A stretch of 64,000 nt of DNA from an uncultured Bacteroidia bacterium (GTDB lineage: Bacteria; Bacteroidota; Bacteroidia; Bacteroidales; F082). Location: contig CACXUM010000015.1 of NCBI GenBank assembly GCA_902770835.1, positions 1-64,000 of the forward strand, read 5' to 3'. This document shows, piece after piece, positions 42,153-55,927 of this stretch (its first letter is position 1; every line of letters begins with the position of its first letter). A program made the position numbers and the translations under genes. Under the pieces are notes generated by a model. That model had not been told where the DNA came from. It searched no databases and saw only the letters and a list, made by a program, of their open reading frames with translations.

Positions 42153-42233
42153 AAAAAATGTGATTTTTCGATTGAAAAAATGTCCAAAAATGTGATTTTT
42201 TGAGTATTTTTGTGGCAGAAAATGTGATGATTG
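42153..42233. repeat. Periodic array A4: three copies of A-run/TGTGA/T-run, 32-bp period
   Basis: AAAAATGTGATTTTT cores lie at 42159 and 42191, and a weaker third copy at 42223 (AAAATGTGATGATT). The spacing is 32 bp each. The second copy abuts the -7 box (TATTTTTG, 42205-42212), and the third covers the start codon of the ATPase gene. A protein bound here would block its expression, so an autoregulatory operator is the simplest reading. The array begins right at the junction with the secA fragment. Confidence 0.75.
42205..42212 (+). promoter_or_regulatory. -7 promoter element (TATTTTTG) inside array A4
   Basis: It lies between array copies 2 and 3, with ~15 nt to the ATG at 42227 (or ~24 nt to the ATG at 42236). 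Confidence 0.6.
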
Positions 42234-43573
42234 CTATGGAACTACTTGAAAGAAAGATAGATAAGTTTCTTGTAGAATGGAAACAGAATCCCGATAGAAA
42301 ACCTTTGATTGTGCGAGGTGCCCGACAAATCGGGAAAACCGAGTCGATTAAGGCTTTTGGTCGTGCCAACTACGAATCGGTGTTGGAGATAAATTTTGTG
42401 CTTCAGAAGAAATTCCGCACCATCTTCGACGACGGCTACGAGGTGGACCAGATCATCAAGAATATCACAGTGCTTGAACCCTCGTGGAAAATTATTCCCA
42501 ACAAGACACTGCTGTTTTTCGACGAGTTGCAAAAATGTCCCGATTGCGCCACTTCGCTCAAGTCGTTTTGCCAAGACGGGCGTTTCGACGTGATTTGTTC
42601 GGGTTCGTTGATGGGCATTTATTACGAGGAAATCGAGTCGAATGCGGTAGGCTTCAAAGAGGATTATGATATGTTTTCGATGGATTTCGAGGAGTTTCTT
42701 TGGGCCAAGGGTTATTCCAAGGAACAAGTTGAGGACCTTTACGCGCACATGCTTTCGCTGAAGCCGTTCTCGCAACTTGAATTGGACACCTTCATGGGCA
42801 TTTTCCGCGACTATATGACGCTCGGAGGTATGCCCGAGGTGGTCAAAATGTACATCGACAACGGCCATTTTGGCGGAGTGCTGAAACTGCAACGGCAACT
42901 TTTGAAAGATTACGAGGAAGACATCACCAAATACGCCAAGGAGACCGACAAGGCGAAAGTCCTCGCGGTTTATGGCCATATTCCGACTTTTTTGGCAAAG
43001 GAAAACAAGAAATACCAAATCACGAAGATTGCCAAAGGTGCGCGAAACAGGGAATACATCGGTGCCGTGGACTGGCTGAAACAGGCTGGTGTGGTCAATG
43101 TTTGCTATTGTTTGAGCAATGTGGAGCTGCCGCTGAAAGGCAATTATGATGCTGAGTGCTACAAAATCTACTACCACGACACGGGGCTGCTGATTGCCTC
43201 TCTTGACGAGGAAGCACAAGACGACCTTCGCGCCAACAAGAATTTCGGCACATACAAAGGTGCCATATATGAAAATGTGGTTGGCGAGATGCTGAGAAAG
43301 TCGGGGTATGAACAGTTGTATTACTACAAGCACGATAGCCCAGCCCTTGAGATGGATTTCTTCGTAAGGGATGCCAACTCGCTGATTCCCGTCGAGGTGA
43401 AGGCGAAAGACGGAGCCACGGCCTCACTGAACAACCTCATCAAATGGAATTCTTATCCCGATGTGAAATACGGCATCAAATTCGGATATAAAAACATCGG
43501 CTGGAACGAGAAGTTTTACACTTTTCCCTATTTTCTCGCCTTTTTGTTGAAGCGGTTTTTGAAAGAAAAGTAA
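42227..43573 (+). CDS. AAA+ ATPase with DUF4143 domain (ATPase-nuclease-like fusion)
   Basis: A 448-residue protein starting [10 protein letters not shown] (the ATG three codons later, MELLERK, is also possible). The N-terminal AAA_14-type ATPase has Walker [11 protein letters not shown] and Walker [12 protein letters not shown]. The DUF4143 C-terminal half has a PD-(D/E)XK-like core ([21 protein letters not shown]). The family is very abundant in Bacteroidota; function is unknown. The gene sits between two copies of the secA 3' end and is preceded by array A4. The whole block (array plus gene) behaves like an inserted module. No integrase or transposase is inside it. Confidence 0.88.
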
Positions 43574-43598
43574 CTGGATTTCTTTTGCAGGAAATCAA

Positions 43599-43634
43599 AA
43601 ACCGAGCGGAACCCAACCAGATTCCGCTCGGTTT
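43599..43634. terminator. Rho-independent terminator, copy 2 (secA)
   Basis: CCGAGCGGAA/TTCCGCTCGG stem with A/T-run flanks, 20 bp beyond the secA stop. It also ends the ATPase gene on the other strand. Confidence 0.85.
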
Positions 43635-43741
43635 TCATTAGGTTAGATGTCGCTTATTCCATAGCGTTTTCAAACCTTCCGTGGCATTGCTTGTACTTTT
43701 TGCCGCTTCCGCAGGGGCAGGGGTCGTTGCGGCCCACTTTC
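43599..43741. repeat. Direct repeat, copy 2: secA 3' end plus terminator
   Basis: The partner of 41977-42119, continuous with intact secA. Most of the 8 differences inside the coding part are third-codon changes, as expected for two diverged secA alleles rather than a fresh duplication. Confidence 0.9.
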
Positions 43742-54387: not shown

Positions 54388-55764
54388 TCAAGGAATATCT
54401 ATCTCTGGCACAATCAACTCTCCCTCATCCCGCACAAAATCCCGTTGATAGAACATGCAATAATAAATCGGCAGATAGGTAATTCCGTTTTTCACCGCGA
54501 CTTCCCGCTCATTATTTAATACAACGGCCTTGGGGATGTGGTAGTCGGGCGTTTCCAAAAACTTGTTCAAGGCACTGTGCACGGTGTAGTCCTTGCCCGA
54601 CTTCACTTCAATGGGCAACACGGTCAAGTGGTCGAAATCGTCAATTAGGAAATCCACTTCGCCCTTTTGCTTGTTGTCGTAATAATGCAACGGAAAACCG
54701 TGTGCGTGAAGTTCTTGCGCTACCACGCTCTCATACACCGAACCAAGGTTGATACTCCGCTCGTCGCGCAGCACAGCGTTGATGTTGAGGTCGTACAAGA
54801 GGTTGGTCAGCAGCCCCACGTCGTTCATGTAGAGTTTGAGCAGGTTCTTGCTCTCCGATTCCAGCAGAGGAAACTTCGGGTTGCTGACGGCTTGCACACC
54901 AAGGGCAATGCCCGAGTTGGTCAGATACTCGAACTCGTCGGCATAGTCGTTGAACTGCTTGTGCTTGGCGGTCTCTTCGATGCGCTTCACGATGATGCGC
55001 TTCTTCTTGTTCTCCATGTAGGAAGGAATCATGTCGTAAATCTTCCGAATGAGCAGTTTCTTCTCCGCGTCGTATTGCGAGGCATCGATTCTGTATAAGT
55101 TGTGAATGTCGCGATGCACCTTCCTCACCTGCGCCATATTCCTGTTTTCCAAGAACTTGTTGATGGCTTCGGGCAGCCCGCCGACCAACAAATAGAGTTT
55201 GAACTGCTGCAACATGTAGTTGTGCAAGGATTCATTCAGCGATTCCCCCGCAAGAAACTTTTCCTTTATCCCGTCAATGGTTTCCTGTCCGCAACCCATG
55301 GCAAGCAAAAACTCTTCAAAATCAAGTGGATACATTTCTTCTATTGAAATGCTTCCTATAGGAACGGAGGCGGTCTGCGTCAAGGCAACGCCCAACTGCG
55401 AACCGCTGGCCACGTAGGTGTATCGCCCCTCTTGGTTCAGAAACTTCAACATGGTCATCAGGTGTGGATAACTTTGTATCTCGTCCAAAAAGACCAAGGT
55501 GTCTTTCTTGCTGCCGAGGCGGTTGCCGGCAATGGTGCCCAACTGCATGTAAAAGTCTTCCGTATTCATGGCAGTGGCAAAGATGCCTCGGCTTTCCCTG
55601 TCTTCCTTGAGGTTGATTTCGACATAGTTCTTGAACATCTTTTTCCCCACATAACGGATGAGGTACGACTTGCCGATTTGCCTCGCTCCGTTCACCAAAA
55701 GAATCTTGTTCGGCTCTTCCCGAAAGAACTTTTCAATGCGCTTTTCGAACTTCCTGTATAGCAT
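54388..55764 (-). CDS. AAA+ ATPase with DUF4143 domain (ATPase-nuclease-like fusion)
   Basis: A 458-residue protein starting MLYRKFEKRIEKFF; an in-frame TTG three codons upstream is less likely. Walker A is NGARQIGKSYLIRY, and Walker B TLVFLDEIQSYP. The C-terminal PD-(D/E)XK-like core is KGEVDFLIDDFDHL followed by PIEVKSGKDY, with the Asp and the ExK intact. A TATTTTTG box at 55782-55789 leaves ~13 nt of leader. Array A5 lies just upstream. It is a second intact member of the same family as the gene at 42227. It is closest to the pseudogene fragment at 48085 in its 'PIEVKSG' region. Confidence 0.88.
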   Translation of the reverse strand: MLYRKFEKRIEKFFREEPNKILLVNGARQIGKSYLIRYVGKKMFKNYVEINLKEDRESRGIFATAMNTEDFYMQLGTIAGNRLGSKKDTLVFLDEIQSYPHLMTMLKFLNQEGRYTYVASGSQLGVALTQTASVPIGSISIEEMYPLDFEEFLLAMGCGQETIDGIKEKFLAGESLNESLHNYMLQQFKLYLLVGGLPEAINKFLENRNMAQVRKVHRDIHNLYRIDASQYDAEKKLLIRKIYDMIPSYMENKKKRIIVKRIEETAKHKQFNDYADEFEYLTNSGIALGVQAVSNPKFPLLESESKNLLKLYMNDVGLLTNLLYDLNINAVLRDERSINLGSVYESVVAQELHAHGFPLHYYDNKQKGEVDFLIDDFDHLTVLPIEVKSGKDYTVHSALNKFLETPDYHIPKAVVLNNEREVAVKNGITYLPIYYCMFYQRDFVRDEGELIVPEIDIP

Positions 55765-55781
55765 AATTCTCAAATTTTTCG

Positions 55782-55789
55782 CAAAAATA
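55782..55789 (-). promoter_or_regulatory. -7 promoter element (TATTTTTG) of the ATPase at 55764
   Basis: Read on the minus strand it is TATTTTTG, with TTG about 20 bp further upstream, which places the -33 next to the first copy of array A5. Confidence 0.6.
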
Positions 55790-55813
55790 TATAAATCAGT
55801 TCATTCCTGCAAG

Positions 55814-55927
55814 AAAAGGGGACTTTTTCCGAAAAAAATCATCAAAAAAGGGGACTTTTTCCGAAAATTTCGGCCTAAAAAGGGGAATTATTCCGTGATT
55901 TTAATGGGTAAAAAGGGGACTTTTTCT
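55814..55927. repeat. Periodic array A5: four copies of A-run/GGGGAC/T-run, 32-33-bp period
   Basis: AAAAGGGGACTTTTTCCG and close variants have their GGGG at 55818, 55850, 55882 and 55915, spacing 32, 32 and 33 bp. The third copy is degenerate (AAAAAGGGGAATTATTCCG). The array fills the gap between the TlpA-like gene stop (55932) and the ATPase promoter (55782), leaving only 5 bp on the TlpA side. Confidence 0.85.

Follow-up and report, generated by a model that had tools for sequence, protein, structure and literature searches.

What are the short, evenly spaced repeats that stand upstream of ATPase genes in an uncultured Bacteroidia bacterium (Bacteroidales, F082), and what ties each row of them to its gene? 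The question is raised by a stretch of 64,000 nucleotides, positions 1 to 64,000 of the forward strand of contig CACXUM010000015.1 (assembly GCA_902770835.1), hereafter the window, which is contig C15 of genome G000, a draft of 3.26 megabases that is 85.8% complete. The closest named matches to one window protein come from uncultured Bacteroidales, several of them rumen assemblies. An earlier reading made from the letters of the window (the sequence-only reading) had described three arrays with a common plan and differing cores, and had suggested addiction, self-recognition or autoregulation as possible roles. We consider it probable, going by the comparative sequence evidence below, that each gene encodes an autoregulated DNA-binding ATPase-nuclease that moves as a cassette together with its own operator, with binding and repression as predicted properties.

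Arrays at the ATPase genes of the window

All three arrays lie where the sequence-only reading had placed them, and on the gene strand they share a frame of GGAAAA or GGAATA followed by a variable core. Array 1 (39026..39140, plus strand) holds four copies of GGAAAACGCAGTTTTT or a one-base variant, starting at 39027, 39060, 39093, and 39126 with a period of 33 base pairs (bp). Array 2 (42153..42228, plus strand) has three copies of AAAATGTGAT with a period of 32 bp, ending at 42164, 42196, and 42228, the last of which overlaps the ATG at 42227 of a DUF4143 ATPase gene (42227..43573, plus strand). Array 3 (55815..55926, minus strand) comprises four copies, GGAAAAAGTCCCC on the gene strand, at 55815, 55847, 55879, and 55912 (spacings 32, 32, and 33 bp), beside a second DUF4143 ATPase gene (54388..55764, minus strand). 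Two further elements had been missed: a 54-bp array of dyads TAGCGCA/TGCGCTA (40838..40963) upstream of an ATPase_2 gene (39316..40761, minus strand), and a set of orphan dyads described below. For each of arrays 1 to 3 the observed repeat score was reached by none of 1000 dinucleotide shuffles of the region. Tandem Repeats Finder (TRF) reports arrays 1 and 3 and not array 2, the weakest of the three.

Arrays across the ATPase genes of the genome

G000 has 54 matches to DUF4143 and 43 to ATPase_2. From these we studied 79 genes with mechanically picked starts: 50 DUF4143 genes (the 54 matches minus two weak or partial ones and two without an in-frame ATG) and 29 ATPase_2 genes (the best 30 of 43 matches, one dropped as the same gene as a DUF4143 row). 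With a TRF score of at least 80, a period of 18-60, and 250 bp of upstream sequence, arrays were found upstream of 28/50 DUF4143 genes, 2/29 ATPase_2 genes, and 5/355 other genes drawn from 464 kilobases, one of those five positives being the window's own orphan array. Weaker repeats were scored by a weighted repeat score over 160 bp, with the 99th percentile of shuffles as cut-off. Direct repeats passed this cut-off in 41/50 DUF4143 genes, 12/29 ATPase_2 genes, and 18/163 controls, and inverted repeats in 13/50, 24/29, and 30/163, respectively, those of the controls probably including terminators; one or the other was present in 46/50, 26/29, and 42/163. The proposed tie between arrays and ATPase genes is borne out as an upstream enrichment, and arrays are far from equally common at the upstream regions of other genes; it does not extend to array 1, an orphan beside pyrH.

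Spacing tracks subfamily: DUF4143 genes have a period of either 32-33 or 22-23 bp, and the dyads of many ATPase_2 genes lie about 53-54 bp apart. The arrays overlap or adjoin a start codon or a promoter-like TAnnTTTG, which we take to be the promoter consensus. Repetition arising by chance or from promoter sequence where the upstream DNA is rich in A+T could draw on the constant frame, which is A+T-rich and can overlap promoter elements, but the shuffles of the window arrays and the contrast between DUF4143 and control genes in the TRF test make it extremely improbable as a general account; single weak arrays may be due to chance. On contig C14 of the same genome two divergent DUF4143 genes, at 46296 (minus strand) and 48135 (plus strand), have one common 22-bp array between them.

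Arrays in relatives and on plasmids

From relatives we took 60 loci with 62 ATPase genes, 58 of which had 160 bp of upstream sequence. Direct repeats were present in 29/39 genes from G018, G014, G021, and G022 and in the single gene from G001. Named genomes contributed 80 loci of the subfamily to which the window gene 55764-54388 belongs; 78 of them extend far enough upstream, and 71 of these 78 have a direct repeat. Spacings from 14 to 70 bp were searched, and all 71 positive repeats fall at 32-34 or 64-66 bp, about three or six helical turns, in agreement with the proposed spacing near whole turns. Periodic motifs are therefore the rule among the homologues sampled, here as among the DUF4143 genes of G000.

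The named genomes are mostly metagenome assemblies and the G-numbered relatives are drafts; plasmid records guard against assembly artefacts. There were 59 plasmid records with a match, and of five examined, four carry an array (Segatella hominis, Collinsella aerofaciens, Parabacteroides distasonis, and Vescimonas fastidiosa); the fifth, from Segatella copri and without an annotated gene, has none. The plasmid copies show that arrays occur in Bacteroidota, Bacillota, and Actinomycetota. In two Bacillota relatives (L323 and L324), each repeat unit has, by eye, a TTGAAA, about 17 bp, and a TATAAT, so that the array could be a series of tandem promoters, each enclosing the site.

The array core and the protein

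The motif consists of the constant GGAA[AT]A and a core such as GTCCC, TTCCC, GTGG, GTGTA, GTCA, CGCAG, or CGCAC, core classes being assigned by eye; the plan is kept while the cores differ, as had been proposed. A repeated 12-base core was found in 93 of 137 genes. All 14 pairs of proteins with at least 75% identity have a common core, compared with 9/285 pairs at 35-55% and 49/3801 below 35%. Within the subfamily of gene 55764-54388, the core class is the same in 0/113 pairs at 50-55% identity and in 20/23 above 90%. The expected co-variation of core and protein is thus present, and the private core of each gene's array appears to follow that gene's protein.

On a tree with 14 core changes, the alignment columns that coincide best with these changes are residues 47, 57, 270, 154, and 271. 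Residues 270 and 271 begin helix 271-283 of an AlphaFold2 model with a mean predicted local distance difference test (pLDDT) score of 87.1. We read this helix and strands 287-293 and 306-313 as a predicted winged helix, with helix 271-283 as the presumed recognition helix.

A host regulator or silencing protein might bind the arrays in place of the encoded ATPase, and the A+T-rich frame common to many of them would suit such a protein. We regard this as very unlikely, given that the cores vary from gene to gene within a genome and in step with the protein, and that the same spacing recurs in three phyla.

The encoded proteins and a role in defence

The window proteins match PADLOC models nearly end to end: the two DUF4143 proteins match PDC-S01 (E 6.6e-183 and 5.9e-152) and the ATPase_2 protein matches PDC-S27 (E 2.4e-203). 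Residues G26, G31, K32, D94, E95, E345, E369, E386, and K388 are invariant in 21 proteins, and we read them as Walker A, Walker B, and PD-(D/E)XK motifs. The best fold matches are the archaeal ATPases 2QEN and 2FNA; Cdc6/Orc1 on origin DNA, MuB, and TnsC appear lower in a list that contains many general AAA+ proteins. Modelling the ATPase_2 protein on its own yielded a structure too poor to use (pLDDT 34.5). The Pfam matches of the three window ATPases include no transposase.

The excerpted text of PMC12988326 describes PDC-S01 and PDC-S27 as ATPases fused to PD-(D/E)XK domains and S01 as the fourth commonest defence of all prokaryotes, and that of PMC13356809 counts 10,358 S01 occurrences in rumen genomes, where it is the most frequent individual locus. 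Neither excerpt mentions an array, a cassette structure, or a scar, and the titles and abstract openings among the literature matches listed contain no description of such arrays.

These genes could be anti-phage defence genes whose array is an operator only, with repeats and scars left by defence-gene turnover through homologous recombination. This is quite possible, although we would stop short of calling it probable. Both families are PADLOC phage-defence candidates, the two papers, in the text excerpted, rank them among the commonest, and DUF4143 matches vary from 0 to 54 per genome within the genus (G000 to G023). The excerpt of PMC12988326 also states that validation is pending for most such candidates, and gene-less arrays are unexpected for defence genes as such. 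A defence role is compatible with an autoregulated cassette, for which it names the payload.

Orphan arrays at the pyrH-secA hot spot

If gene and array travel as one unit, what remains when the gene is lost? The window contains an insertion hot spot bordered on the left by pyrH (38217..38924, minus strand) and on the right by secA (43654..46959, minus strand), gene names being our reading of the sequence and, for secA, of its translation. Since the secA end directly follows pyrH in G016, G040, and G058, positions 38925-43654 of the window are inserted matter relative to these genomes. This matter includes a duplicate of the secA 3' end with its terminator (41975..42150, plus strand), a direct repeat of 43596-43771. 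Duplicate and original are 88.6% identical over 176 bp and 94.4% over 143 bp; against G072, identity is 95.8% across 143 bp for the left copy and 94.3% across 175 bp for the right.

The motif of array 1 was found in 8 of 60 genus genomes, G000 included. It directly precedes a DUF4143 gene in G064, G061, and G022, and in the first two of these the array and gene stand beside pyrH. In G072 the array is kept beside pyrH and precedes another gene, an ATPase_2 gene with TGTCCACGAAA dyads. In G014 the motif precedes a start that soon meets a stop, and in G055 and G068 it looks like a single match inside a coding stretch. Array 1 of the window is an orphan scar of a lost DUF4143 gene, with relatives still carrying the ATPase behind it. 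An operator of pyrH was rejected as the main reading of it, as the same array precedes an ATPase gene in G064, G061, and G022 and pyrH merely adjoins it. A second CGCAG copy that would mark a partner acting in trans was also sought; at up to one mismatch G000 has none but two single one-mismatch matches at contig ends. Contig C17 of G022 is not claimed as proof of the motif moving to a new place because it also has a short secA-end-like stretch.

Next to array 1 stand the orphan dyads TGTCCACGAAA/TTTCGTGGACA, 54 bp apart (39163..39252), so that the window holds two scars in a row. An ATPase_2 gene still lies behind such dyads in G018, G072, and G073, at pyrH and without the array in G018 and G073. 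In G012 the dyads remain at pyrH and the gene is gone, and in G049 that gene lies about 940 bp from pyrH. These comparisons come from 30 pyrH loci viewed, most others of which show other genes.

Two side observations concern the same neighbourhood. Positions 41019-41300 contain no obvious gene and are 82-95% conserved in G012, G022, G049, G064, and G072; Rfam gave for 40780-41330 one match far below the gathering score and nothing else, and the stretch may represent either a small RNA or another mobile fragment. Just past secA lies an Abi_2 family gene (PF07751; 47088-47975), so the neighbourhood may collect defence genes.

Array-gene-array structures and gene loss

Direct repeats of at least 20 bp flank 14/50 DUF4143 genes, 16/29 ATPase_2 genes, and 2/93 control genes, with flanks of up to 1500 bp for the ATPases and 1000 bp for the controls; a few of the matches lie well away from the gene or involve sequence other than the array. 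Inspection of 19 genes showed that in most ATPase_2 cases it is the array that forms the flanking repeat. Of 16 ATPase_2-type genes from five relatives, 14 are flanked by a repeat when 260 bp upstream and 200 bp downstream are considered; these 16 derive from 20 of 24 loci, four G000 loci being left out, after removal of four rows redundant in the first 60 residues, and they are not independent types because several are orthologues. The flanking repeats, searched in direct orientation, vary in length, and the ATPase_2 blocks contain dyads.

At two loci the array occurs both with its gene and, in relatives, as a single copy without it. At map, G000 and G018 have block, gene, and block, the 73-bp block being identical on both sides; in G064 a single block lies between the same neighbours and in G012 an array is present, the gene being absent there in both genomes, and G049, G019, and G072 have the neighbours with neither (20 of 30 loci viewed). 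At fusA, the gene is present in G000, G064, and G018, and one block without it remains in G074 and G022; the rest of the 22 of 30 loci viewed show neither gene nor block. Completeness of these drafts permitting, the map-type gene has no close homologue in G064 (best 56%) or G012 (best 45%), and the fusA-type gene has none in G022 (best 48%) or G074 (best 49%). By eye, the orphan half-sites at map and fusA look better kept than the spacers. At the fusA locus of G000 itself (contig C45, about 19226-19796; L186), fusA is without about 144 bp (48 codons) that are present in relatives, at query positions 223/224.

In the subfamily loci from named genomes, flanking direct repeats of at least 25 bp occur in 12/70 cases, compared with 0/70 for mismatched flanks. 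The downstream copy lies within 150 bp of the stop codon in 8 of these 12, some of which are simple or dispersed repeats. Some flanking duplications are ends of neighbouring genes, as in L305 (154 bp) and at secA in the window (176 bp). In Prevotella sp. P5-92 (L284), two arrays of one ATPase type enclose an ATPase gene of another type together with its array, and the gene of the enclosing type comes next.

These structures go beyond the sequence-only reading: gene and array behave as a mobile cassette, and ATPase_2 arrays are often two-sided. Genes lost at pyrH, map, and fusA while their arrays stay lend no support to an addiction role, and of the roles that had been proposed autoregulation fits best.

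A stronger proposal is that the ATPase-nuclease cuts or pairs the arrays as ends to excise or insert its gene, much as a transposon's ATPase-nuclease pair or a homing gene would. In its favour are the repeats on both sides of ATPase_2-type genes, the two states with the same flanks at map, the duplicated stretches of adjacent DNA, about 30 to 217 bp long, that surround some cassettes, the invariant PD-(D/E)XK residues, and fold matches that include Cdc6/Orc1 on origin DNA, MuB, and Tn7 TnsC. However, the three window ATPases are without a transposase domain, the 33-bp class has as a rule a one-sided array, and the flanking duplications vary in length and are mostly imperfect. Ordinary homologous recombination across direct repeats suffices to explain the loss of genes, with the protein playing no part, and since the fold list consists mostly of general AAA+ proteins, the likeness to MuB and TnsC is unspecific. 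We consider self-mobilization of this kind unlikely.

A model for gene and array

The sequences show directly that arrays are enriched and regularly spaced, that core and gene are linked, that cassettes turn over, and that some arrays have no gene. The autoregulated cassette that we favour would account for these observations as follows. The product of each gene would be an AAA+ ATPase that also contains a winged helix and a PD-(D/E)XK nuclease domain. Its winged helix would recognise the array belonging to that gene, in which two to about a dozen sites cover or adjoin the promoter. With sites two, three, or five helical turns apart, several molecules could bind along one side of the DNA and repress the gene that encodes them. 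The cassette of gene and array would travel between genomes as a whole, and diverging cores would keep the dozens of paralogues in a cell off each other's promoters. In the ATPase_2 class, recombination between the flanking arrays, perhaps aided by the protein, would remove the gene and leave one array. Binding, repression, cooperative assembly, the role of the nuclease, any cutting of arrays, and the way in which genes are lost are steps that we infer, and the protein's payload role may be defence.

Several points weigh against this account. Four of 50 DUF4143 and 3/29 ATPase_2 genes of G000 passed no threshold, nor did 7/78 loci of the best-studied subfamily, and direct repeats were present in only 9/18 genes from other families of the order. 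Pairs at 55-75% identity are mostly without a common core (36/178 share one), and above 75% some pairs are orthologues at one and the same locus, whose upstream DNA is alike through common ancestry, so that the link between core and protein is in part shared descent. The tree test is a hint only because it involves 14 core changes and its p values, 0.0003 to 0.003, are uncorrected over 458 columns; residues 47, 57, and 154 lie outside the helix and are ranked on a par with 270 and 271. A downstream array is unexplained by simple autoregulation, and the case for binding of the array by the ATPase and for autoregulation is drawn throughout from sequence.

Other features of the window

Tandem repeats of 87 bp occupy 20382-20620. 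A short cluster of GAAAAAGTCCAA and its inverse lies at 59323-59386, 3' of a phosphoribosyltransferase gene; it is similar to the GGAAAAAGTCC motif and may be another scar.

Relation to known systems and significance

Parts of this arrangement resemble known systems. Iterons and their initiators likewise combine direct repeats at whole helical turns, a winged-helix ATPase, and diverging repeats; unlike them, the arrays here are chromosomal, stand upstream of a single gene, and occur as many types per cell. Tn7-type elements, with the TnsC ATPase and TnsA nuclease, have in common with these genes an AAA+ ATPase, a PD-(D/E)XK nuclease, and arrays of sites, but here there is one fused protein without a transposase domain and the flanking repeats are direct. 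As in integron gene cassettes, a gene lies between two direct repeats and its loss leaves one, although here the repeat is private to each gene and located at its promoter. Autoregulated toxin-antitoxin and restriction-modification control genes are also mobile, with an operator at their own promoter and private specificity; here there is apparently a single gene, no systematic partner search having been made.

In a very common ATPase family, then, most genes have a private array next to them, and the two are gained and lost jointly as small mobile units, which makes the function of the family directly testable. A private, predictable array offers an immediate assay for what each protein recognises, and the matched pairs of protein and site form a natural collection for learning winged-helix specificity. 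An orphan array serves as a marker of former sites of such genes. Should the cassettes prove selfish, defence-system counts would have to be revised.

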